Below the pieces are notes generated by a model, which saw only the letters and a program-made list of their open reading frames with translations, ran no database searches and was not told the DNA's origin. The position numbers and the translations under genes are program-made. From a virus, in IMG/VR virus record IMGVR_UViG_3300044675_001894, positions 1 through 64,000 of that record: DNA of 64,000 bases; one strand, written 5' to 3'. Positions 41,234 to 58,087 of the stretch are shown piece after piece (within the stretch, counting starts at the first letter, position 1; every line of letters starts with the position of its first letter).

Positions 41234-41254
41234 TGGGGGCGAACACCCGTTTGT

Positions 41255-41316
41255 GTGACGTTCGTCACGTGTGACCATCGTCACATGGATTGTTCCAATC
41301 GTGTGACATTCGTCAC
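41255..41316. repeat. Phased palindrome array (iterons or operators)
   Basis: Three 14-bp palindromes GTGAC-N4-GTCAC lie at 41255-41268, 41271-41284 and 41303-41316. A related shape, GATTG-TTC-CAATC, occupies 41288-41300. Starts are 16 bases apart (41255, 41271, about 41287, 41303), so repeats lie about one and a half helical turns apart. Such an array suits an initiator or repressor that binds as dimers co-operatively. A TTGACA follows at 41323, but no good -10. Confidence 0.7.
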
Positions 41317-41941
41317 AAACCCTTGACAAACGCCAAAACGCCTCAGACGCACCACAATGCGTTCTCAGAGGAGGAGGGAGGGATGTAAGGGGTCAAGGCG
41401 GGCAGTGGTACAAAGTACCCTCAGAGAGGCTCTCGTACGCCTACGAATAGGGCTATGAGCCTTGCTGGGTAAGGGTTTGCGGGGTATGGGTAGGTTACGA
41501 AGTACTCGCCACAGCGCCCCAATTGCTATCCACTGCACACTCGCTCCATATCGGCACCTGCACGCAACACAGAGCCTCCTAGGCACCTCTCCTGCCATCC
41601 TGCGGTATTCATTGATCAATTGAATTCTGTGGGTATTCATGCCTCCTCTCTCCTGTATCTCCTCCTCCATCCGATGGATGGCTGGTCGTTGGGGGCGCCC
41701 AATTCCAGCCCTGTCCCCGCCGTCCCGAGGCTCCAGCCCATGCTGGGCAAGGCTCAAAAGAATTCTCAGGAATTGTTTAATTGGGGGTTGACAGATGTAC
41801 CCCATCTGTGCGTTTAATGGGGGTGGAGGGGGATGCGTCCCCCGCCTCGGTTCCTTGACAAGTGGCAGGTACGGCACGCAGGCTTCGCCCTGCGCATTTT
41901 GCGTTCCTGCCCTCAGAATCAAACATGGTTCAAAATTCCTC
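41317..41941. other. Noncoding hinge with small hairpins
   Basis: No convincing gene is seen here; frames on both strands overlap each other and show no ribosome-binding sites or protein-like composition. The sequence holds an AT-rich spot with the perfect palindrome ATTGATCAAT (41611-41620) and GGTATTCAT repeated at 41604 and 41632. It also has hairpins at 41733-41746, 41792-41810 and 41864-41911 (the last nested, with an inner CGCAGG/CCTGCG stem). TTGACA also occurs at 41789 and 41855. It may contain the unwinding site and early promoters. Confidence 0.5.
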
Positions 41942-42068
41942 AGCGTCACGGGCTGGCTTCGGCTGGCTCGTGGCGCTCAATGAGGGCTGGAGGCATTCCC
42001 CCTGCTTCAGCCCTGATTGAGCGCACAGCGCTCCATTGGCACACAGCCAATGCAGTCCTGAGGAGGAC
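41942..42068 (+). promoter_or_regulatory. Structured leader 1 (A-B-C-D plus SD hairpin)
   Basis: Hairpin A (41942-41977) has a 16-bp stem closed by a TTCG loop. Hairpin B (41973-42024) pairs GCGCTCAAT with ATTGAGCGC and has an inner stem. Hairpin C (42019-42033) is GAGCGC-ACA-GCGCTC, and D (42034-42052) is CATTGGC-ACACA-GCCAATG. A shares 5 bases with B, and B shares 6 with C, so neighbours exclude one another. The SD hairpin (42055-42068) is GTCCT-GAGG-AGGAC, 5 bases before ATG. Confidence 0.8.
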
Positions 42069-42073
42069 ACACC

Positions 42074-43051
42074 ATGGATATTCAACTATCAACACTCAAT
42101 CCTGTGGAACACGATTTGCTGTACATGGAGCGCCTACGGACAGCGTCCAAAGCGAACTACCAGTACCGAATCACCAGCCACTACTTGATCAGTGCCTATG
42201 GCAAGGAGTTGCGTTGGAGCAATGGCTACGGAAGCCGTGACAGCGTTGCTGTCGTGGACTACCGCACCGATCCAATGCCCACCGAATATGCACAAGCACG
42301 TCTCATGGAGTTGTACGGCGAAACTGCCGAGGCAATGTTCAATGACGGCGTGGTCGGCATTTACGGCTCACTGCCAACCCGTGAGGCTGAACGCTTCACT
42401 GAGGCTCGTATCGCAATGGAGGATGCACGGCGTGACCTGCGTGAGTGTGACACCGAATATGACAGCCGTCCTTGGAGTCGTTACTTCTTGGTCACGTCAT
42501 CGGATGGGCACATTCACTCCAGCACACAGTGCTCCACCTGCAATAAGGGCGTCAATGACACTGAGTTTGCACTCGTGCCTTACCTCAGCGGATCCAGTGC
42601 CGATGTTGCGGTTGCCGATCTCGGATCGGCGCTGTGCTCGGTCTGCTTCCCTGATGCTCCCGTGGAGTCACGTGAGCAGGTCAAGATCAGCGCCAGCGTG
42701 GCGTTGACACTTGCCGAGCAGGGCGTGGAGGCATTCCAGCAAGCCCGAGCCAAGGCTCGTGCGAACGCTGTGAAGCGTGCTCAGGAGCGTTGCGAAGGCA
42801 GTGGTCAACCAACGGTCAGAAGTGATCGCTGGCATCATTGCCCAGTATGCGGATATGGACAGCGTGCGGACGGTAAGTCCCGTGCACATCGCCGTCCTCG
42901 CTTCTACGCCACCAAAGAGGTCGGCTACGACACCAAATACTGGAACGGCACCACGTGGGCGCCATCAACCAAGAAGGTTGACCTACTCACTCGTGAGCAG
43001 GCTGAAGCCGTCTTGGTGGCTCACGGTGGCTCACGAGTCATTCAGGATTGA
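42074..43051 (+). CDS. Zinc-binding early protein of actinophage/plasmid type
   Basis: This 325-aa protein is first of the rightward early genes. The middle has HIHSSTQCSTCNKGVNDTEF and LGSALCSVCFPDAPVE (about residues 144-199), a conserved zinc site of a family found in actinobacterial phages and plasmids. A second zinc motif may be made by CEGSGQP and CPVCGYGQ (about 238-261). The C-terminus has YATKEVGYDTKYWNGTTWAP. The function is unknown; nucleic-acid binding is likely. It has its own structured leader. Confidence 0.78.
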   Translation: MDIQLSTLNPVEHDLLYMERLRTASKANYQYRITSHYLISAYGKELRWSNGYGSRDSVAVVDYRTDPMPTEYAQARLMELYGETAEAMFNDGVVGIYGSLPTREAERFTEARIAMEDARRDLRECDTEYDSRPWSRYFLVTSSDGHIHSSTQCSTCNKGVNDTEFALVPYLSGSSADVAVADLGSALCSVCFPDAPVESREQVKISASVALTLAEQGVEAFQQARAKARANAVKRAQERCEGSGQPTVRSDRWHHCPVCGYGQRADGKSRAHRRPRFYATKEVGYDTKYWNGTTWAPSTKKVDLLTREQAEAVLVAHGGSRVIQD

Positions 43052-43057
43052 TCATTC

Positions 43058-43136
43058 CCCCAGCGCCTAGGGCGTGCCCGTTCAATCGGGACTGGGGACT
43101 ACTGGCACCCGCCAGTTACAACGACCTGAGGAGGTC
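43058..43136 (+). promoter_or_regulatory. Structured leader 2 (three-helix type)
   Basis: An outer stem CCCCAG/CTGGGG (43058-43063 with 43092-43097) encloses two hairpins. These are CGCC-TAG-GGCG (43064-43074) and CCCG-TTCAAT-CGGG (43077-43090). A separate hairpin ACTGGC-ACCC-GCCAGT follows (43101-43116), then the SD hairpin GACCT-GAGG-AGGTC (43123-43136). Leader 4 has the same fold with compensating base changes. Confidence 0.8.
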
Positions 43137-43141
43137 AAGCC

Positions 43142-43828
43142 ATGAATACAGAAGCAATCTACGACAAGGTGCAGGCAATCCTTGATCGTGCCAATCACCC
43201 GAACACGCCACAAGCGGAAGCCGAGACGGCTCTCGCCATGGCACAACGGCTCATGATGAAGCACGGTCTTGAAGAGTCCGCATTCGCCAAGGCTCAAGAT
43301 CGTGACGAGAACATCGTTACCGATCAGATCCCAATCAGTGGTCAATGGCAACTTCGCCGTCTCGGTCTTGCTGGTGCAATCGCTAGTGCCAACTCTGTTG
43401 CCAACTACCGCTCCACATCGTGGGCGGATGGCAAGAAGTCGTTGGTGTTGGTGGTGTACGGCACTGCTGGTGACATCTTCGCTGTCAAGACACTGTTTGC
43501 ATCGGCAGACTTGCTCGCTTCTCGTGTGATCCCAAAGGGTGATCGGTCATTCCGCAATGCGTGGTGGCTCGGATTCTCCTCGGGAGTGCGTGAGGTGTTG
43601 CGCAAGTCCAAGAACGAAGTGATCGCAGAGCAAGGTGCTGGCACTGGGCTGGTGCTCGCTGACAAGTTCAAGCGTGCAGACGCTGAGATGCGTTCAAAAG
43701 TCAAACTCAAGTCCAGTGGGTACTACAGGTACTCATCGGGTAACGGTTACAACGCTGGTCGTTCTGCTGGTCGTTCGTTCAACACTGGTGGCATCGGTAA
43801 CGGTGTCGCTGGAGCGCTCGGACGATGA
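43142..43828 (+). CDS. DUF2786 protein
   Basis: This 228-aa protein begins with a DUF2786 domain: IYDKVQAILDRANHPNTPQA, EAETALAMAQRLMMKHGLEE (residues 5-44). The middle (LGLAGAIASANSVANYRSTS; SLVLVVYGTAGDIFAVKTLF) fits the DUF7168-like part that often follows. The Gly/Ser/Tyr/Arg-rich end is likely disordered. Family members are frequent in actinophages; function is unknown. The stop overlaps the next gene start (ATGA), so only the first of the pair has a structured leader. Confidence 0.82.
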   Translation: MNTEAIYDKVQAILDRANHPNTPQAEAETALAMAQRLMMKHGLEESAFAKAQDRDENIVTDQIPISGQWQLRRLGLAGAIASANSVANYRSTSWADGKKSLVLVVYGTAGDIFAVKTLFASADLLASRVIPKGDRSFRNAWWLGFSSGVREVLRKSKNEVIAEQGAGTGLVLADKFKRADAEMRSKVKLKSSGYYRYSSGNGYNAGRSAGRSFNTGGIGNGVAGALGR

Positions 43829-44301
43829 GCATCCATGCATACATGGAGGTAGTGCGGGAGGGCGTTGCAAAGCGCTCTCCCAAAATGCCCGAACATCAAG
43901 CCACGGTGTATGCAATTGAGAATGTGGTGGAGCGTCACTTGCCATCGCAAGTGATCGCTACCAAGAACGCATTCGCTTGGCTGGATCGTGTGTGTGAGAC
44001 CGAAGGCTGGGACACGCCGATGGTTGATCGCATCCGATCCACCAAGTGGGCAGGTGTCGCTAGTGCCGAAGGCAATGTCATCGGCATCAGTGGCTCCAGC
44101 ACGACAGCACTGGTACTGGCTCACGAACTCGCTCACATCGTGTGTGGCGAGCGTGGTCACAATGAGTGTTGGCGTAATGCGTTCGTGAACATCGTCCGAG
44201 ATCACATCTCGGTACAGCATGCGTCACTCCTGCATACCTTGTACGAGCGTTTCCAACTTCAATCAGGTCAGTGGAGGCTGACCGACACATCACGAGTGTG
44301 A
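43825..44301 (+). CDS. HExxH zinc metallopeptidase-like protein
   Basis: This 158-aa protein has LVLAHELAHIVCGERGH (about 96-112): His100, Glu101 and His104 form an HExxH site, and His112 may be the third ligand. It resembles small gluzincin or SprT-like domains. It is coupled to the DUF2786 gene, and many DUF2786 proteins have such a partner. The stop codon falls inside the loop of hairpin A of the next leader. Confidence 0.76.
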   Translation: MSIHAYMEVVREGVAKRSPKMPEHQATVYAIENVVERHLPSQVIATKNAFAWLDRVCETEGWDTPMVDRIRSTKWAGVASAEGNVIGISGSSTTALVLAHELAHIVCGERGHNECWRNAFVNIVRDHISVQHASLLHTLYERFQLQSGQWRLTDTSRV

Positions 44302-44388
44302 ACTCGTGGTGCTGTCATGGCTCATCGGCGCAAGTTGGTGAGTCATGACAGCATCATCCGATGCTGAATAAAGCGACCTGAGGAGGTC
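44288..44388 (+). promoter_or_regulatory. Structured leader 3 (A-B-C plus SD hairpin)
   Basis: Hairpin A (44288-44311) has a 9-bp stem whose loop holds the stop codon of the upstream gene. Hairpin B (44306-44357) has about 24 pairs with wobbles, closed by GCAA. Hairpin C (44349-44366) is CAGCATC-ATCC-GATGCTG. A and B share 44306-44311, and B and C share 44349-44357. The SD hairpin (44375-44388) is GACCT-GAGG-AGGTC. Confidence 0.82.
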
Positions 44389-44392
44389 AACC

Positions 44393-44947
44393 ATGAAAAC
44401 ATCAGAGATCAAGCAGATCATTGCCAAGGATCCGAACGCCGTGTTTCGCATTGGCGGTCGTGGTCGGTACACGCACTACGGCTCAATCACAGAGATTAAA
44501 GAAAATGTCGTGGACACTTACAGCAGTTGGGGTCGCAAGACGGGCACCCGTGTCAATGTGTTATTCACAGTGCGTTACGAGTACTTCACTAGTGGCACTG
44601 AGGCTCATTACGGCTACCCCGAGAAGTTGCCTTCAGTAACACTGGAGCGCAACACTTGGACTAAGCCACGTGACATTGAATGGCACGTGTCGGACTTCGG
44701 TCAGACCATTGAAGAATATGTGGTAACGACTGACGCCGAAGTGAAGGCTGACTGGCAGGCAAAGAAGGACAATGACAATGCCAAACAACAACTGATCAAC
44801 CGAATTCTCAACGACTTCGGAATCGTGTTGAGTGTGGGTGATGAAGCCACTGACAAGCGCTGGGATCACCTAAACGATGAGTTGGACAGACTCAGCCTTG
44901 ACACATTGAAAATGCTTGTACACAACTACACACCTTCACGGGTGTGA
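44393..44947 (+). CDS. Unknown early protein (184 aa)
   Basis: This 184-aa protein has a beta-rich N-terminal half (VFRIGGRGRYTHYGSITEIK, VNVLFTVRYEYF) like small barrel folds, then a helical end (QQLINRILNDFGIVLSVGDE, DELDRLSLDTLKMLVHN). No family is recognised. It is a single-gene unit with its own leaders before and after. Confidence 0.72.
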   Translation: MKTSEIKQIIAKDPNAVFRIGGRGRYTHYGSITEIKENVVDTYSSWGRKTGTRVNVLFTVRYEYFTSGTEAHYGYPEKLPSVTLERNTWTKPRDIEWHVSDFGQTIEEYVVTTDAEVKADWQAKKDNDNAKQQLINRILNDFGIVLSVGDEATDKRWDHLNDELDRLSLDTLKMLVHNYTPSRV

Positions 44948-44954
44948 TTGGTTC

Positions 44955-45035
44955 CCCTAGCGCCTCGGGCGTGCCGATTCAATTCGGACTAGGGACTGTG
45001 AGCACTCGCTCACTACAAAATACCTGAGGAGGTAT
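44955..45035 (+). promoter_or_regulatory. Structured leader 4 (three-helix type)
   Basis: The outer stem is CCCTAG/CTAGGG (44955-44960 with 44989-44994). Its hairpins are CGCC-TCG-GGCG (44961-44971) and CCGA-TTCAAT-TCGG (44974-44987). A GTGAGC-ACTC-GCTCAC hairpin (44998-45013) and the SD hairpin ATACCT-GAGG-AGGTAT (45020-45035) follow. Compared with leader 2, eight base pairs change to other pairs, while the TTCAAT loop and the ACT spacer are kept. Confidence 0.82.
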
Positions 45036-45039
45036 AGCC

Positions 45040-45363
45040 ATGGCATATCAACTAACAGACTGGGATCTAGAGCAGATCACTGACACGCTGGACATGTATG
45101 AAGCGGGCACCGTGAGGCGGTACTCGGGTCGTGCGATGTACGGCGAGCAGTGTCTCGGCATCGTGACCGAAGATGTGGCATCAGCATTCATGATCCTCGG
45201 ATCAGCACTCGCTGACTTGGGCAATGACGGTAACGCATTGACAAGAAAACTTCTTCGTGAAGTGCGCCAAGACAGCATGGGTCGTGACTCAGCCGTTGTC
45301 TACTTCCCATCCATCACAATGCCCGAGGGTTACGTGGAGGGTGACGAAGACAGCGACAACTAG
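45040..45363 (+). CDS. Unknown acidic early protein (107 aa)
   Basis: This 107-aa protein (MAYQLTDWDLEQITDTLDMY at the start) is mostly helical, with GTVRRYSGRAMYGEQCLGIV and an acidic end (YVEGDEDSDN). It may be a small regulatory or inhibitory protein, but no family is recognised. It is a single-gene unit. Confidence 0.72.
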   Translation: MAYQLTDWDLEQITDTLDMYEAGTVRRYSGRAMYGEQCLGIVTEDVASAFMILGSALADLGNDGNALTRKLLREVRQDSMGRDSAVVYFPSITMPEGYVEGDEDSDN

Positions 45364-45382
45364 TCGTAAGTGGTAGTCGGGA

Positions 45383-45486
45383 GCATCACGGGTTCGCCCG
45401 TGATGCCCTCACAGTGCATCGGCGTTGTGTCGGTGCATTGTGAGGGCATACAATTGCCCGTTCAACTAATAAGACCTGAGGAGGTC
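45383..45486 (+). promoter_or_regulatory. Structured leader 5 (A-B-C plus SD hairpin)
   Basis: Hairpin A (45383-45406) is a perfect 10-bp stem with a TTCG loop. Hairpin B (45403-45449) pairs ATGCCCTCACA with TGTGAGGGCAT plus about 10 inner pairs. Hairpin C (45444-45459) is GGGCA-TACAAT-TGCCC. A and B share 4 bases, B and C share 6. The SD hairpin (45473-45486) is GACCT-GAGG-AGGTC. Confidence 0.82.
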
Positions 45487-45489
45487 ACC

Positions 45490-45744
45490 ATGGATGCAAC
45501 TATTCACAAAGTAACTGGGCTTCGGATTGAGAAGACTGGTGACTCACGACTCCACACGATTGATCTCGTGATTGAGTACGAAGACTTGGCGTTCAGCCGT
45601 CCCCAGTGGGAGCAGGACAACGAGTCATTCGGTTACGCAAAGTTGGAGTCAACGATCACGCTCTTCATCAGTGACACCGCTGATATTGAGACAGTGTTGT
45701 GGAAGGCGATCGCAGATCTCACTTCCGACCTTGCCAATGCGTGA
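45490..45744 (+). CDS. Unknown early protein (84 aa)
   Basis: This 84-aa protein starts at the ATG right after the SD hairpin; a longer in-frame extension would run through the leader and is rejected. It is beta-rich (GLRIEKTGDSRLHTIDLVIE) with a helical end (ETVLWKAIADLTSDLANA). No family is recognised. Confidence 0.72.
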   Translation: MDATIHKVTGLRIEKTGDSRLHTIDLVIEYEDLAFSRPQWEQDNESFGYAKLESTITLFISDTADIETVLWKAIADLTSDLANA

Positions 45745-45761
45745 GTAATGAGCAATGGGCA

Positions 45762-45867
45762 GTCATGGCGCAAGCCATGGCGTGCTCGGAGTGCACTGAC
45801 CCCCATCGGTGCATTCCGAGGACGCAAGTCCATACTTAGTAATTCAAAACAGAATCTGAGGAGGTTC
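45762..45867 (+). promoter_or_regulatory. Structured leader 6 (A-B-C plus SD hairpin)
   Basis: Hairpin A (45762-45781) is GTCATGGC-GCAA-GCCATGGC. Hairpin B (45782-45823) pairs GTGCTCGGA with TCCGAGGAC with one mismatch, plus an inner stem. Hairpin C (45820-45831) is GGAC-GCAA-GTCC and shares 4 bases with B. The SD hairpin (45852-45867) is GAATCT-GAGG-AGGTTC, with one G-T wobble. Confidence 0.8.
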
Positions 45868-45872
45868 TTACC

Positions 45873-46598
45873 ATGGGTGCAATAACACCAAAACAGCAAG
45901 CGTTCATTCGCACAATGCTCCTTGAGCGTGCTTCAACACTCGGTCTTGATGAGGCTGGCGTTGATCAGTACATCATTGATCAGAAGGTGAATGAGTTGTC
46001 AAACAAGTCAGCGTCCACCGTCATTGATGCGATCAAACGCATTGAAATCAAGCGTGTGGGCACCGATCACTTGCCGAAGGCAGAGCGCACCATTGTCAAC
46101 AAGTATGCGAACCCGTGCACATTGTGCGGTCATCCTGTACCTGTTGGTGCTGGTCATGCATTGCTTATCGGTGGCAAGTGGCAGACGTACCACGCACTCG
46201 GTCAGTGCTCCAGCGAAACTGCTGTAGCGCCCGAGCGTGTGAGCAATGAGTTGTTCGGGACATTGCCTGATGGCTTCTATGCAATGAAGTCAACGGGCAC
46301 CAATGACCTCGTGTTCTATGCGGTGAAGACAAACAAGGGTTTTCATGATCCGAAGTTCAAGGGTCACCGCTCCATCTACCTGATCGTAGGTGGACACAAG
46401 GACGAGCGACTCACTGGTGAGCGTGGCGTGAACGCTGTGAAGCGTCTCGTAGCGCTCAACGATGCAGAGCGTGTGCAGGCACGAGCACTGTACGGTCAAG
46501 AGATCGGACGGTGTGGTGTGTGCGGGCGTCATCTCACTGATGAGGCAACACGCAAGCGAGGCATCGGCAATGACTGCGCAAGCAGGTTGGGCATCTAG
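45873..46598 (+). CDS. DUF6011-type zinc-ribbon protein
   Basis: This 241-aa protein has a helical N-terminal region (TPKQQAFIRTMLLERASTLG), a first zinc site (NPCTLCGHPVPVGAGH) and a C-terminal DUF6011 motif (GRCGVCGRHLTDEATRKRG then IGNDCASRLG). DUF6011 proteins are common in actinobacterial phages and often accompany helicases, here the SNF2 gene immediately downstream. A nucleic-acid-binding role is inferred. Confidence 0.78.
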   Translation: MGAITPKQQAFIRTMLLERASTLGLDEAGVDQYIIDQKVNELSNKSASTVIDAIKRIEIKRVGTDHLPKAERTIVNKYANPCTLCGHPVPVGAGHALLIGGKWQTYHALGQCSSETAVAPERVSNELFGTLPDGFYAMKSTGTNDLVFYAVKTNKGFHDPKFKGHRSIYLIVGGHKDERLTGERGVNAVKRLVALNDAERVQARALYGQEIGRCGVCGRHLTDEATRKRGIGNDCASRLGI

Positions 46599-46607
46599 CC
46601 CAAGGAT

Positions 46608-46699
46608 GTCATGGCGTAAGCCATGGCGTCCTCACAACACATCGGGCAACTGGTGTGCTGTGAGGACGCAAGTCCACTAACAATTACCTGAGGAGGTAA
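46608..46699 (+). promoter_or_regulatory. Structured leader 7 (A-B-C plus SD hairpin)
   Basis: Hairpin A (46608-46627) is GTCATGGC-GTAA-GCCATGGC. Hairpin B (46628-46667) pairs GTCCTCACA with TGTGAGGAC and has an inner 8-bp stem closed by GCAA. Hairpin C (46664-46675) is GGAC-GCAA-GTCC and shares 4 bases with B. The SD hairpin (46684-46699) is TTACCT-GAGG-AGGTAA, six pairs. Confidence 0.83.
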
Positions 46700-46705
46700 C
46701 AGACC

Positions 46706-48238
46706 ATGAATACACAACTAGGAGAACTAAGCGCATTGCTTAGTCGTGTTGAGCGTGTAGCGCCAGCCATCACGGCTGACCCTGCGCTCCATGCGTTAAG
46801 CAGTGCTCACGATGGCGAAGTCGCTGTAGACCTCGCCCAACCTCTCTTCCCATTCCAGCGTGCTGGTGTGGCGTATGCACTCAAGCAACGCCGTGCCATC
46901 ATCGGAGATGAGATGGGGCTGGGTAAGACTCCACAAGGCATCGCAGTAGCAGTGCACGCACACAAGGAGGGACACAAAGTCCTCGTTGTAGTGCCACCAT
47001 CGCTCCGCATCAACTGGCAACGCTCCTTCGCACTGTTCGCACCGTGGCTCTCAACAGCCATTGTGTCGGGCAACAAGGTGACGGCTCTTCCCAAAGCAGA
47101 TGTGCTCATTATTGGTGACAGCATCATTGACACTTGGTCAGTGAGGCTCGTCAATGCCAAGTTCGGCGCACTGATCGTGGACGAGGCACACCGTGCGAAG
47201 AATGCAAAGTCAGGACGCACCAAGGGCATCGCACATATCGCAAAGTCAATCCCGACTGAAGGATATGTGACGCTCTTGAGCGGAACGATCATCGTGAACC
47301 GTCCGAACGAATTGGTCTCGCCATTGTCAATCATTGGCAGGCTTGACCGAGTGTTCGGTGGTAAGTCAGCGTTCCTGTTTCGTTACTGTGACCCGATCCA
47401 CAACGGCTGGGGTTACGTGTATAACGGAGCAACCAACACCACTGAGTTGAACGACAAATTGCGTGGCACCTGCTACGTGAGGCGTAACAAGTCAGATGTG
47501 TTGAAGGAACTACCTGCCAAGCGCCGTGCTCAGGTTGCTACCGAGATCAGCAACACCGATCTCGTGGCATATCGCTCTGCCGAAGAGAACTTCCGTGACT
47601 TCGTCATCGCCAATGGCGGTGTTGAAGCGTGGCAGAGAGCCTCTAAGGCTGAAGTGATTACACGCTTGAATGCATTGCGCAGGTTGCTAGGCATCGCCAA
47701 GATCCCGTATGTGGTTGAGCACGTAGAAGAACTTGTCGCACAAGGCGAGAAGGTCATCGTGTTCGCACACCACAAAGAAGTCATCGCACAACTAAGCAGT
47801 GCTCTTCATGAGCACGGCGTAGTCAAGGTGGCTGGCGGACTCAGCGATGTGCAGAAGCAGGAAGCAGTTGACGCATTCCAAACTGGTAGCGCCAAGGTGT
47901 TCATCGGACAATTTCAATCCGCTGGTGTTGGTCTCACATTGACCGCATCATCGCATGTCGTGTTCGCTGAATTGCCATGGGAGCCAGCCTCCGCAGTACA
48001 AGCCGAAGACCGTGCGCATCGCATCGGTCAAGACAACGCTGTGGTGGCATGGTGGCTACTGGCTGTAGACAACACAAGCGAGATCCCAACAGTGGACGAT
48101 CGCATGTGGGCGCTACTGAATGCCAAACACGAGACAGTCTCGGCTGTCTTGACGGGGCATGGTGAGGACATGGGCGCCGAGGGTGCGACAAGCATCACTC
48201 AATCGCTCATTGAAGGCATCATCGGCAACGGAGGTTGA
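46706..48238 (+). CDS. SNF2-family DNA helicase/translocase
   Basis: This 510-aa protein is a superfamily 2 ATPase. It has Q-like FPFQRAGVAYALKQ, motif I GDEMGLGKT (67-75), Ia VVVPPSL, motif II DEAH (159-162), motif III LLSGTIIVNRP, motif V GVGLTLTASSHVVF and motif VI EDRAHRIGQ (about residue 440). It is the size of a minimal SNF2 core with no added domains, like phage SNF2 proteins thought to act in replication or recombination. It has its own leader. Confidence 0.9.
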   Translation: MNTQLGELSALLSRVERVAPAITADPALHALSSAHDGEVAVDLAQPLFPFQRAGVAYALKQRRAIIGDEMGLGKTPQGIAVAVHAHKEGHKVLVVVPPSLRINWQRSFALFAPWLSTAIVSGNKVTALPKADVLIIGDSIIDTWSVRLVNAKFGALIVDEAHRAKNAKSGRTKGIAHIAKSIPTEGYVTLLSGTIIVNRPNELVSPLSIIGRLDRVFGGKSAFLFRYCDPIHNGWGYVYNGATNTTELNDKLRGTCYVRRNKSDVLKELPAKRRAQVATEISNTDLVAYRSAEENFRDFVIANGGVEAWQRASKAEVITRLNALRRLLGIAKIPYVVEHVEELVAQGEKVIVFAHHKEVIAQLSSALHEHGVVKVAGGLSDVQKQEAVDAFQTGSAKVFIGQFQSAGVGLTLTASSHVVFAELPWEPASAVQAEDRAHRIGQDNAVVAWWLLAVDNTSEIPTVDDRMWALLNAKHETVSAVLTGHGEDMGAEGATSITQSLIEGIIGNGG

Positions 48239-48319
48239 TCGTGGGCGCTCGGCGCCTCATGGTCGGCGCCAGTAGCGACAGACGATGTGTTCTTGTCCTC
48301 ACGAGAACCCATCACAGTG

Positions 48320-48421
48320 CATCACGGGCGCAAGCCCGTGGTGTTCTGACAGTACATTGGCACACCGCTTGTGTACTGTCAGAACATCACCCGATGTTCA
48401 AGTAACAACGCCTGAGGAGGC
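48320..48421 (+). promoter_or_regulatory. Structured leader 8 (A-B-C plus SD hairpin)
   Basis: Hairpin A (48320-48343) is CATCACGGGC-GCAA-GCCCGTGGTG. Hairpin B (48338-48390) has a 19-bp stem around a 15-base loop. Hairpin C (48382-48399) is GAACATC-ACCC-GATGTTC. A and B share 6 bases, B and C share 9. The SD hairpin (48410-48421) is GCCT-GAGG-AGGC. An extra GGCGCC repeat pair lies upstream, at about 48255-48275. Confidence 0.83.
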
Positions 48422-48424
48422 ACC

Positions 48425-48661
48425 ATGAAAGTAAGTCAAGCAATCAAGTTATTGAGTGAGATCAACCCTGACGAAGAGATCGCTATCTCTTGGTGGGAAT
48501 CAAACTTGTTCACTGACAAAGACAACAACCAACTATTGGCAGACTCAGAACTGTGGCTCAAGGCAGTCGCAGTGTTTGACGCCAACGGTGGTTACGACAG
48601 CGTCAACCAATTGGTATGGGATTACCTCAATTACGACATCAATCAAGAAGGAGAGTTTTAA
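48425..48661 (+). CDS. Unknown small acidic early protein (78 aa)
   Basis: This 78-aa protein (MKVSQAIKLLSEINPDEEIA, then ISWWESNLF) is helical at the start with an acidic, Asn-rich remainder. It heads a four-gene unit; the next gene begins with no space after its stop. The SQAI..L...NPDEEI pattern recurs in phage proteins of unknown role. It is weakly like the start of the next gene (MDISEAIQTMI). Confidence 0.72.
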   Translation: MKVSQAIKLLSEINPDEEIAISWWESNLFTDKDNNQLLADSELWLKAVAVFDANGGYDSVNQLVWDYLNYDINQEGEF

Positions 48662-48904
48662 ATGGACATTTCAGAAGCAATTCAAACAATGATCACTAAT
48701 CGCCACCTCAAAGAACACGAAATAGTGGTGAGGTGGTCGTGGTGCGACATCCAAGCGATGTACCCACAGTGGACAGAAGACCAATGCCGAGATGCCCTGT
48801 ATGAAGTTGACGATTATGTACACGAGAGAATCGTGGAACTCGGCAACGATGTGTTGAAGCAACTTGTATACGAAATCGTTGAAACGAAATGGGAGAGTGA
48901 ATAA
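48662..48904 (+). CDS. Unknown small acidic early protein (80 aa)
   Basis: This 80-aa protein contains VVRWSWCDIQAMYPQWTEDQ and CRDALYEVDDYVHERIVELG, helical and acidic. It follows the previous gene directly and overlaps the next by one base (TAATG). No family is recognised. Confidence 0.7.
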   Translation: MDISEAIQTMITNRHLKEHEIVVRWSWCDIQAMYPQWTEDQCRDALYEVDDYVHERIVELGNDVLKQLVYEIVETKWESE

Positions 48905-49209
48905 TGAACAACATCGGAACACCAATCGGTGCATGGGCAATCATCAAGTGGTATGACTCAGGCATTGAGAGCGAGGTATTCATCTCGTTCGGTACATGGA
49001 ATGAGAACGAGTGGAACGGCGAGTTTGACTCGTTCGGGAATCGTGACGATGAGGTCTTCTTCTACTGCGAAGGTGGAGAAGAGGAACTCAAGTCGCTCAT
49101 GGGTGACAGCAAGGAAGACTTCGTGGTCATCAACTACGCAGTTGACTACAGCATCCCGCTCGTGCTCGCTGACATGGACGAGCCAGTATTCAAGGAGGAA
49201 GCACAATGA
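48904..49209 (+). CDS. Unknown acidic early protein (101 aa)
   Basis: This 101-aa protein (ESEVFISFGTWNENEWNGEF, DDEVFFYCEGGEEELKSLM) is strongly acidic with a beta-rich pattern. Such acidic DNA-mimic-like small proteins are common in early phage regions, but mimicry is only a guess. It overlaps the next gene by 4 bases. Confidence 0.7.
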   Translation: MNNIGTPIGAWAIIKWYDSGIESEVFISFGTWNENEWNGEFDSFGNRDDEVFFYCEGGEEELKSLMGDSKEDFVVINYAVDYSIPLVLADMDEPVFKEEAQ

Positions 49210-49469
49210 TCGGTACAAAGAGTTGGCTACTGACAGGTTGTTATGTAGACGGCACACACGGCGTCTACAGCGCCATGGAAGCGTGCAGGATCGCACGAGA
49301 ACTCGGATGGGATGGGCAACAGCCCACAGACATTGAGGACTCGTGGTACCAAGAAGAGGTAGCCACGGAATGGCTGAACGAAATGATCGCTGATGATGGT
49401 CACTCGTTCGGCTGGCATGACGCCGAATACTTCTACATGCCACAAGCATGGTGGGAGGATGTCGCTTGA
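49206..49469 (+). CDS. Unknown small early protein (87 aa)
   Basis: This 87-aa protein has GVYSAMEACRIARELGWDGQ, SWYQEEVATEWLNEMIADDG and HSFGWHDAEYFYMPQAWWED. It is rich in Trp and acidic residues. It closes the four-gene unit; a structured leader starts 7 bases after its stop codon. Confidence 0.7.
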   Translation: MIGTKSWLLTGCYVDGTHGVYSAMEACRIARELGWDGQQPTDIEDSWYQEEVATEWLNEMIADDGHSFGWHDAEYFYMPQAWWEDVA

Positions 49470-49476
49470 TCGGGAG

Positions 49477-49586
49477 CATCACGGGCTACGGCTCGTGGTG
49501 TCCTCACAGCCCATAAATCATATTTGTGGGTTGTGAGGGCACTCAGTGCCCGATAAATTAATTAATCCCTATGACCTGAGGAGGTC
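49477..49586 (+). promoter_or_regulatory. Structured leader 9 (A-B-C plus SD hairpin)
   Basis: Hairpin A (49477-49500) is CATCACGGGC-TACG-GCTCGTGGTG. Hairpin B (49498-49542) pairs GTGTCCTCACA with TGTGAGGGCAC and continues inward for about 10 more pairs. Hairpin C (49537-49551) is GGGCAC-TCA-GTGCCC. A and B share 3 bases, B and C share 6. The SD hairpin (49573-49586) is GACCT-GAGG-AGGTC. Confidence 0.82.
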
Positions 49587-49588
49587 TT

Positions 49589-49948
49589 ATGTTAGAGCCA
49601 GTAATCACGATGACCGTTGAGCAATGGGAAGAGCAATACGAACCCTTTGTCAATCACCTAGATGCAGATGCATCATGGGCAACCGATGACGCCAACGGCA
49701 TCATGTTTGAAACGTACGGTGCCGAAGTTGATTATGTGTTTGCCCGACCGCTCAACCACACATGGACATATGTGGATGGCGAAGAGGGCACATACATTAT
49801 TGCTGGACGCCATCTCGTAAATCGCATCGGTTACTTCGTAACTGCGGTGCCATGGAAGGATGACTTCAACACCAAGTATGAAATTCAAGTAAGCGCCAAT
49901 GATGATTATTACCAAACAGTGTTAGACCTTGAAGGAGGTAGCAAATGA
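49589..49948 (+). CDS. Unknown early protein (119 aa)
   Basis: This 119-aa protein has MTVEQWEEQYEPFVNHLDAD and a beta-rich second half (VFARPLNHTWTYVDGEEGTY, VNRIGYFVTAVPW). The stop overlaps the next start (ATGA). No family is recognised. Confidence 0.72.
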   Translation: MLEPVITMTVEQWEEQYEPFVNHLDADASWATDDANGIMFETYGAEVDYVFARPLNHTWTYVDGEEGTYIIAGRHLVNRIGYFVTAVPWKDDFNTKYEIQVSANDDYYQTVLDLEGGSK

Positions 49949-50166
49949 GCAAGATCAGTTTTGACAATGTGGATGAAGGTACCGAGGTAGAAGTACTCGT
50001 GCAGATATCCCCGAGGGAGACATTCCCGTACACAGGGATCGTTTCACGAGTCAGTGACACCGAGTTGTCAATGTGGACTACAGACAGTCCGAACGACACT
50101 TACGAGACCGAGCGTGAGATTGATATTCCAATCGCAAAGATCCTTGAACTGGACATCTTTGAATAA
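49945..50166 (+). CDS. Unknown small beta-rich early protein (73 aa)
   Basis: This 73-aa protein (MSKISFDNVDEGTEVEVLVQ, YTGIVSRVSDTELSMWTTDS) has the alternating pattern of a small SH3- or Tudor-like barrel. It is coupled to the preceding gene. A nucleic-acid- or protein-binding role is possible but unproved. Confidence 0.7.
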   Translation: MSKISFDNVDEGTEVEVLVQISPRETFPYTGIVSRVSDTELSMWTTDSPNDTYETEREIDIPIAKILELDIFE

Positions 50167-50202
50167 TGAATCGTTAAGCGAGTCCTGAGAGGCTTGTACG
50201 AA

Positions 50203-50326
50203 GGGTGGCATCAGCCTCGGCTGGTGTCATCCCGTGGATGCTCTGCTTCCTATAGGGGGTCAGCGGAGCGTCCACGGGGTGAGGCAACTGTGCAACACCT
50301 GTACATAACAATGATCTGAGGAGGTC
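50203..50326 (+). promoter_or_regulatory. Structured leader 10 (A-B-C plus SD hairpin)
   Basis: Hairpin A (50203-50232) has 13 pairs with wobbles and a CTCG loop. Hairpin B (50228-50281) pairs CATCCCGTGGA with TCCACGGGGTG plus an inner GCTCTGC/GCGGAGC stem. C (50278-50299) is weaker (GGTG/CACC with an inner GCA/TGC). A and B share 5 bases, B and C share 4. The SD hairpin (50313-50326) is GATCT-GAGG-AGGTC, with one wobble. Confidence 0.78.
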
Positions 50327-50329
50327 AAA

Positions 50330-50575
50330 ATGAGTAAATGGAATGTAACGGTCTCGCTCCAAACGGGCGTGTACCTAAAAGAAGTCATTGCAAATGATCC
50401 ATCAACATTGATTGAGGGAGACCTCAATGAAGCAGATGTGATCAAAGCATTGATTGAGCAATTGCAGTCGGGTGATTCAACACTGGACTGGGTAGTGGAA
50501 GAAGTGCAAACACTGGACGGTCGTGTCGTGCGGTTTGACGATGAGGATCGTGTATGGCTCGGAGATGCAGTATGA
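50330..50575 (+). CDS. Unknown small early protein (81 aa)
   Basis: This 81-aa protein (MSKWNVTVSLQTGVYLKEVI, ADVIKALIEQLQSGDSTLDW) has a strand-helix layout ending with VRFDDEDRVWLGDAV. It is the first gene of a five-gene unit; the stop overlaps the next start (ATGA). No family is recognised. Confidence 0.72.
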   Translation: MSKWNVTVSLQTGVYLKEVIANDPSTLIEGDLNEADVIKALIEQLQSGDSTLDWVVEEVQTLDGRVVRFDDEDRVWLGDAV

Positions 50576-56650: not shown

Positions 56651-58087
56651 TCAATTATCTTCGGATAGATCCAAGATATCTGAGTACATGGAATTGGTCG
56701 CATTTGGTCCCATTCCGCCACCTTCTAGCATGCGATTGGATTCTCCAGCCTTGGCTCCAAATAATCTAGATAAAACTCCGCTGGATCCTCGTGCTTCCAT
56801 CTCTAAACGGATGGTGTCACGGGTGTCTGAGATGTTCTTGAAACGGTCAATCAAGTTGAACAAGCGATCCATTTCGTTGGACAACGCTGGGTCAAGACCT
56901 TGACCTTCTAGTTCTTCAGCAAAGCGAGCGAACATCACACGACCTACTTGCATCTCTAACAGGGCACGCATCGCCGCCTGTAATTGATCCTTTGTGCGTA
57001 TCTCAATCGGCAAGTTAAATGCGCATTCTGTGTTTTCTTTAAATGAAGGACATCTACTGCTCAAATAGCAATTATTGCATTGGCGTAAAGGGTTCGCATT
57101 GTAACGAATTACGTTCACTTTTTCAGGGTCAATTTCTATTGATTCCCCTTGATTATCAACGGTTTGTGAGCCAAAGGAGGTGATCGTTTCCATACCCATT
57201 ACTGGTAGCAATACACGGTCACTCTCGTGCCGCTTGTTTGGTACGTTGATAGCAATAGATGACCCCCCTGAAACCGCTAAAGTGGGGGTATGTGGTTTAG
57301 GGTCAATAGCAATTATTGACCCATCTTCAGTACTACTGATCTCTTGCTCGTCATCGTCATTCATAGGGTCATAGCCCCCAAAAGTATGGGTCTCCCACTG
57401 GCGCCATGAAGCGATAGCGAGGGTACCGATTGCGGATACGTTGTCATCCATTACAGCATCAAAGTCAATACCGAGTCGGATGATGTCCGCTCGGTGCTTC
57501 TTTCGTGAAGACTCTTTCTGTTGTGCTGGGTATCGGCGCAAGCCGTGACCGTCCCACACCTGTGTCTCGCCGTAACGGATAGCGCTCGTCCATGATCCCA
57601 CGATTACGGTGTCCCATGGGATGCGCTCAATCAGATCGGGCTTAGATGTAATGCCGACTAACTTGGCACTCCAGCGCTGTTGTATGGACGCTATGCGCCC
57701 CACATTGCGTCCTGTGACCGCCTTGTCGCTGATCGCAGCACGACCGTACTTCTGGCACAGCCATGTCAGGCGCTCCAGATCTTGCTCGTCATTCCATAGC
57801 GGGTAGTACTTATCACCCAGCCATGTCCCGTCATACTCAGGACGCCCAATCACAATATGTATATTATCTGCGTGATCCCGTACGAACTGATCAAATCGGC
57901 TTGTGTCCTCATCGTTCTCGGATGTGTACACAATGACCTCGCCACCTCCGAAGAGCACGCTGAGGTCTAGTTCTTTCTTCTTGGGGATCGGAAAGTGGGT
58001 CAGGTTGATGGCATGACGCTCTACCCCAGCGTCAATGAGCATCTTCCGATACGTCCCCTTTTCCGCTCCGCCAAAGAAGACTTTCAT
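56651..58087 (-). CDS. Conserved phage protein with Cys cluster (478 aa)
   Basis: This 478-aa protein has an N-terminal alpha/beta domain with KVFFGGAEKGTYRKMLIDAG, and further on DTVIVGSWTSAIRYGETQVW and HRADIIRLGIDFDAVMDDN. A linker follows, then RQCNNCYLSSRCPSFKENTE followed by CAFN (about 340-363), four Cys that could hold an Fe-S cluster or zinc. The C-terminal 100 residues are helical. I know this type from actinophages but not its function; a DNA- or base-modifying enzyme is possible. It is the largest gene in this region. Confidence 0.74.
   Translation of the reverse strand: MKVFFGGAEKGTYRKMLIDAGVERHAINLTHFPIPKKKELDLSVLFGGGEVIVYTSENDEDTSRFDQFVRDHADNIHIVIGRPEYDGTWLGDKYYPLWNDEQDLERLTWLCQKYGRAAISDKAVTGRNVGRIASIQQRWSAKLVGITSKPDLIERIPWDTVIVGSWTSAIRYGETQVWDGHGLRRYPAQQKESSRKKHRADIIRLGIDFDAVMDDNVSAIGTLAIASWRQWETHTFGGYDPMNDDDEQEISSTEDGSIIAIDPKPHTPTLAVSGGSSIAINVPNKRHESDRVLLPVMGMETITSFGSQTVDNQGESIEIDPEKVNVIRYNANPLRQCNNCYLSSRCPSFKENTECAFNLPIEIRTKDQLQAAMRALLEMQVGRVMFARFAEELEGQGLDPALSNEMDRLFNLIDRFKNISDTRDTIRLEMEARGSSGVLSRLFGAKAGESNRMLEGGGMGPNATNSMYSDILDLSEDN

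Follow-up and report, generated by a model that had tools for sequence, protein, structure and literature searches.

In phage T7, intergenic hairpins (R1.1 and others) divide the early transcript, and their processing by RNase III both matures and protects the messenger RNAs (mRNAs). T7 R1.1 and RNase III are the cited precedents for this kind of processing (PMC8708148, PMC6121014). A 12-base-pair (bp) stem with a tetraloop is sufficient for the E. coli enzyme, and its targets share little sequence (PMC8708148). Hammerhead ribozymes also flank phage genes and have been proposed to cut transcripts into gene-length mRNAs (PMC3088659; Perreault et al. 2011); in HF1/HF2, the HHphage element lies 13 nucleotides (nt) upstream of the start of an early helicase gene (PMC3088659). 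The locus considered here is a series of ten leaders (41,942–50,332) in an uncultured phage, within a window formed by bases 1–64000 of a 96,857-base IMG/VR virus record. The leaders lie between same-strand genes, and all of them terminate in a Shine-Dalgarno hairpin a few bases 5' of a start codon. Eight (leaders 1, 3 and 5–10) carry three hairpins each, A, B and C, which share strands and form a relay upstream of early genes or gene groups. There is about an even chance that these leaders are modular mRNA-processing sites, in which B would be cut as double-stranded RNA and the freed arms would refold with A at a new 3' end and with C at a new 5' end.

All relays are on the plus strand. Leader 1 occupies 41942–42033 (A 41942–41977, B 41974–42023, C 42019–42033), with an extra hairpin next to it at 42034–42052. 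Leader 3 occupies 44284–44366 (A 44284–44316, B 44310–44353, C 44349–44366), and leader 5 follows at 45379–45459 (A 45379–45410, B 45404–45448, C 45444–45459). In leader 6 (45757–45831), A spans 45757–45787, B 45781–45824 and C 45820–45831 (GGAC-GCAA-GUCC). Leader 7 (46604–46675; A 46604–46631, B 46627–46668, C 46664–46675) stands 5' of an SNF2/DEAD-type helicase gene (46706–48238, plus strand), which served to find related phages. Leader 8 is at 48315–48399 (A 48315–48348, B 48342–48386, C 48382–48399) and leader 9 at 49472–49551 (A 49472–49505, B 49499–49541, C 49537–49551). Leader 10 (50203–50299; A 50203–50233, B 50228–50281, C 50276–50299) is a variant that lacks the usual letters at the A/B junction. 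Leaders 2 and 4 adopt another fold on the same strand, in which a three-way junction bearing a UUCAAU loop is joined by a single hairpin: leader 2 (43058–43116) has its junction at 43058–43097 and its hairpin at 43101–43116, leader 4 (44955–45013) at 44955–44994 and 44998–45013.

The strands are labelled s1 (before A), s2 (A/B), s3 (B/C) and s4 (after C). An initial annotation of this DNA had described hairpins A, B and C in the eight leaders, in which B and C always share an arm (3' in B, 5' in C) and A and B share one in six. All eight fold accordingly, with exact arms now located, and the B/C relation holds in every one, with 4–6 nt in common in each leader: GGGCA in leaders 5 and 9, GGAC in 6 and 7, GAACA in 8 and GAGCG in 1. 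The A/B sharing is also present, only more widely than had been counted, since it extends to all eight leaders, including leader 7 (GGAUGUC/GGCGUCC) and leader 6 (GGGC/GCUC around a mismatch). The loop of A is UUCG, UNCG or GNRA in 6/8 leaders (1, 5, 6, 7, 8 and 9), in agreement with the earlier statement that most A loops are of these kinds. In a wider set of 70 relay leaders, the junction base triple of A/B/C is A:U:A or G:C:G in 67 and G:U:A in the other 3.

The common end of the ten leaders is itself a structured RNA. The element reads nn[C/U]CUGAGGAGGnn. In leader 1 it forms the hairpin GUCC-UGAGGA-GGAC (42055–42068, plus strand), and its CTGAGGAGG core recurs at 43126, 44378, 45024, 45476, 45856, 46688, 48412, 49576 and 50316. 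Among 35 distinct copies taken from relatives fetched by protein, all 35 have complementary bases at the first flanking pair (shuffles: mean 24.0, maximum 30), and 28 have them at the second (shuffles: mean 13.1, maximum 21); the flanking pairs thus covary as RNA. The closest described repeats are the SAS/ESAS elements of cluster K mycobacteriophages (PMC3203893), in which a short repeat with a Shine-Dalgarno core likewise stands just 5' of non-structural gene starts, often with an inverted repeat upstream. The letters differ: the cluster K family is recognised by a 13-bp GGGATAGGAGCCC next to starts, which the start element of this phage does not have, showing instead CCTGAGGAGG with complementary flanks. 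ESAS was judged not to support RNA pairing and was read as a DNA site (PMC3203893), whereas the start hairpin and upstream hairpins of this phage covary as RNA. A lone CCTGAGGAGG is also found at G000 77684–77693 on the minus strand, distant from the early block.

Strand sharing of this extent is not produced by chance. In 21 non-redundant leaders, a few of them misparsed, maximal stems overlap on average by 7.9 nt between A and B and by 8.5 nt between B and C. After hairpins are swapped between leaders, these means fall to 4.4 ± 0.55 and 5.1 ± 0.56 nt, and after base pairs are permuted inside A and C, to 3.9 and 4.7. A second test compared the four strands with swapped partners in 26 non-redundant leaders, where swaps do not fully remove relatedness: z is 10.9 for s2:s3 (the base of B) and 5.5 for s3:s4 (C), and 0/2000 swaps reach either value. 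Chance is excluded because the observed overlaps and both z values exceed the swapped and permuted controls, and B–C sharing is therefore strongly leader-specific. In the same test s1:s2 (A–B) gives z = 1.6, and the negative controls s2:s4 and s1:s3 give 0.4 and -1.8. With bulges allowed in register, s1:s2 rises to z = 3.4 overall (0/4000) but is 1.6 within pairing classes. A–B sharing is thus universal, yet mostly carried by class-conserved letters. A cloverleaf closed by s1:s4, which appears in several minimum-energy folds, was rejected for want of leader-specific support (z = 0.3).

The initial annotation had named shuffled sequence and homologous phages as the two places where the shared arms might fail. 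Swapped and permuted hairpins do not reproduce the observed overlaps, and about 25 related IMG/VR contigs (helicase 67–100% identical) retain the three-hairpin relay arrangement. No cultured relative matched at the DNA level, and the best helicase match among phage records is only 34% identical.

Helix B behaves like a ruler. Counted from the base immediately 3' of the UGG of A, it measures 18–21 bp in 28/29 non-redundant leaders and 23 bp in the remaining one. Conservation follows a fixed register along the helix, with no variation at bp 2 and 14 and hardly any at bp 5–8 and 15, whereas G.U is frequent at bp 11, 16 and 18, and bp 9, 13, 17 and 20 vary freely. Such unevenness does not match shared descent alone and shows that full B, including the shared arms, is a selected form. 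Sense strands reach a mean minimum free energy of -54.5 kcal/mol versus -40.4 kcal/mol for the antisense, and the sense strand is the more stable in 26/26 leaders; the leaders therefore act as RNA, as had been supposed from their loops. Inverted repeats acting at the DNA level, or paralogous repeats without RNA function, would fit leaders that repeat one architecture and have motifs in common. This reading is very improbable, given the better folding of the sense strand in 26/26 leaders, the conserved G.U pairs and the changes in orthologs that preserve pairing.

Those changes occur in sequences related by descent; they represent few events and are not independent counts. At the fourth position of all four strands, the helicase leader has G:C:G:C in the window and C:G:C:G in L027 (helicase 76% identical), so that three mutually exclusive helices survive a fourfold change. 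In leader 9, four relatives have U in place of C in s3 and, to match it, A in place of G in s4.

The mutually exclusive stems of the earlier description are thus upheld; the two-state regulatory switch that it drew from them is not. Full B is more stable than C in all 26 leaders, by 0.9–6.6 kcal/mol, and one gene family can carry, depending on the phage, a relay, an unrelated three-way junction or a hammerhead. A switch by which the uncut RNA moves among A, B and C upon a signal would use the 1:2, 2:3, 3:4 strand logic that the relay has in common with trp-type attenuators, and in some leaders the B and C states do lie within about 1 kcal/mol of each other. It is nevertheless distinctly unlikely: one and the same state prevails throughout the leaders, no terminator is present, neither B nor C covers the Shine-Dalgarno hairpin, and different phages place different leader types before the same gene. 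Trp-type attenuators also differ in their leader peptide, none being evident here, where none was sought. In the leader region, promoter-like sites number 3 (6.9 ± 2.5 expected) and terminator-like sites 6 (7.8 ± 2.7 expected), with no excess of either; no terminator-like site falls on A, B or C, in line with the earlier remark that ordinary termination is not involved. The relay hairpins are not the G+C-rich hairpin followed by a U-run of an intrinsic attenuator. Nor do they resemble a riboswitch, which would have an unpaired conserved ligand-binding core and related genes, since the conserved letters are paired and leader types swap.

No element in the whole 96.9-kb record matches Rfam 15 above the gathering threshold; the best match in the leader region at E<1 is an irrelevant microRNA. 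Neither a core scan nor Rfam finds the hammerhead core CUGANGA/GAAA/NUH in the window. In relatives, true hammerheads hold the relay's position. Canonical type II hammerheads stand 14–24 nt 5' of the Shine-Dalgarno hairpin in 16 leaders of three relatives: seven in L032 (helicase 68% identical), eight in contig 3300032233_001072 (loci L228 and L229) and one in L144. The same scan of 4.2 Mb of shuffled sequence gives no match. Rfam supports the L144 copy (E=0.0086) and gives weaker matches to several copies in L032; none of them reaches the gathering score. The serial hammerheads lie at L032 1302–3680 and L144 2442–2501, with others in L228 and L229. In their serial arrangement just 5' of early gene starts, and in the purpose proposed for them, the window's leaders resemble the described phage hammerheads (PMC3088659); they differ in having no CUGANGA/GAAA/NUH arrangement of their own.

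The hammerheads also refold. In 16/16, stem I stands as a hairpin at the start of the predicted 3' product, and the 3' strand of stem II is able to form a new hairpin once the 5' product departs (CUGAUG/CAUCAG in the L032 type, UGGG/CCCA in L144). In 14/15 L032-type copies, the free base at N7 of CUGANGA agrees with its pairing partner in the second hairpin. Strand sharing in the relay is explained by this comparison, in which a strand freed by cleavage pairs anew: the relay counterpart would be s3, freed from B and captured by s4. That strand sharing is a cut-and-refold device, not a sensing switch, is about as likely as not.

Replacement of one leader type by another is seen before several genes, the types being assigned by simple patterns and the relays all being supplied by one phage lineage. 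A DUF2786 gene is preceded by a three-way junction or a relay at 86–88% identity, and a 172-amino-acid gene by a relay or a three-way junction at 81–91%. The helicase gene has a relay in 16 leaders and a three-way junction in L144. The gene of 172–176 amino acids follows a three-way junction in L018, a hammerhead in L032 and L229 (57–59%) and a relay, recognised by eye, in L016. Since the leaders exchange with self-cleaving ribozymes, their job is probably to cut the transcript; since the types are interchangeable before the same gene family, generic mRNA processing is indicated, not gene-specific sensing, with the second state arising after the cut.

On this basis the leaders would split one long, polycistronic early RNA into smaller mRNAs. 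As the transcript emerges, B would fold into its full 18–21 bp helix, including the basal pairs s2:s3. A double-strand nuclease, most likely RNase III of the host or a similar enzyme, would then cleave this helix and set both basal arms free. In the upstream message, s2 would re-pair with s1, so that an extended hairpin A closes the RNA at its 3' terminus or close to it. The downstream message would carry C, built from s3 and s4, about 5 nt in from its 5' terminus; a short linker and the Shine-Dalgarno hairpin would separate C from the start codon. The refolded hairpins may protect the ends. Computed energies are compatible with these steps if the cut is assumed to fall about 10 nt from the base of B. 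The downstream product then folds into C at -6 to -11 kcal/mol, and in the upstream product A takes in s2, so that a median of 1–3 nt stays unpaired at the 3' terminus. A stem of about 12 bp or more between genes, as in RNase III sites, is present in 29/29 leaders (B 18–23 bp). The likeness to the T7 early sites is that of intergenic hairpins dividing an early phage transcript. The differences are a three-hairpin module with shared arms, a near-perfect helix of about 20 bp with fixed-register pairs, eightfold repetition and interchangeability with ribozymes, and cleavage here is predicted from structure. The leaders would work like both the T7-type RNase III sites and the phage hammerheads, as putative members of the former and, having no hammerhead core in the window, not of the latter.

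Several observations weigh against processing by cutting and refolding. No phage-encoded RNase III gene was found in this record. RNase III requires a certain helix length and little consensus, which leaves the fixed-register pairs of B unexplained and could indicate another protein. At bp 3–4 of B, some orthologs are mismatched (G x G or C x A), those with G x G still keeping C. The low s1:s2 value means that the 3'-end half of the model depends on class-conserved pairing and one quadruple change. The swap between hammerhead and relay comes down to the single relay of L016.

The fixed-register pairs, including the G.U wobbles at bp 11, 16 and 18, would suit a protein that recognises the 20-bp helix of B and shields the mRNA or brings in ribosomes, no cut being involved, and the adjoining conserved, covarying Shine-Dalgarno hairpin fits such a stability or translation element. 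It is rather unlikely, as it leaves unexplained why B always contains the 5' arm of C and why self-cleaving ribozymes replace the relay. The relay could also be a new self-cleaving ribozyme, equivalent to the hammerheads at the same sites. The equivalence of position speaks for it, as does the reasoning that one self-cleaving class replacing another is a guide to new classes (PMC10085705). Nearly all conserved relay letters are paired, however; there is no conserved unpaired core or complex junction, B is a long, near-perfect helix, and Rfam offers no ribozyme match. Self-cleavage by the relay is accordingly unlikely, and cutting by a protein followed by refolding is preferred.

The three-way junction type (window 43058–43097 and 44955–44994) does carry conserved unpaired letters. 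About 50 leaders of related phages, collected by their own UUCAAU loop, show near-invariant CGUG, UUCAAU and GGGAC. It may be an undescribed self-cleaving or tRNA-like processing element. Taken more broadly, and tentatively, this phage family might possess plug-in mRNA-processing leaders, all fused to one conserved Shine-Dalgarno hairpin, with at least two undescribed RNA classes standing in for hammerheads: the relay, which would be either a cut-and-refold substrate or a self-cleaving RNA of a new kind, and the UUCAAU junction, as a candidate new self-cleaving ribozyme. If so, one phage lineage would turn a single transcript into many hairpin-ended messages by means of interchangeable protein-cut helices and ribozymes. 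This would give a testable reason for hammerheads between phage genes, a question left open so far, and a natural setting for locating unknown ribozyme classes by position.

Further leader types were seen in more distant contigs. Type I hammerhead-like elements precede CTGAGGAGG in L161, L169, L149 and L102, where they occupy the same position as the type II copies; apart from the Shine-Dalgarno hairpin and a distant DUF2786 gene, these phages share nothing with the one described here. The cores of the elements are odd (CUGAAUGA, CCGAUGA), Rfam did not confirm them, and the loop of stem II could pair with the downstream strand. In a fourth type, at L161 4237–5289, L102 8585 and L149 197 and 4571, a long stem is interrupted by an internal loop around GAAGCC...GGUUUC. 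L113 and L117, unrelated phage contigs fetched only for the GACCTGAGGAGGTC pattern, contain type II hammerheads that do not adjoin that motif.

Elsewhere in the window, structural genes (portal and others) are on the minus strand, and the early-type block of small plus-strand genes begins at about 42,000. Palindromes like TGTGACNNTCGTCAC are repeated at 41240–41320, in a long non-coding stretch 5' of the first leader, and are possible operator or origin sites. A queuine tRNA-ribosyltransferase-like gene, of the auxiliary kind, lies at 56651–58087.

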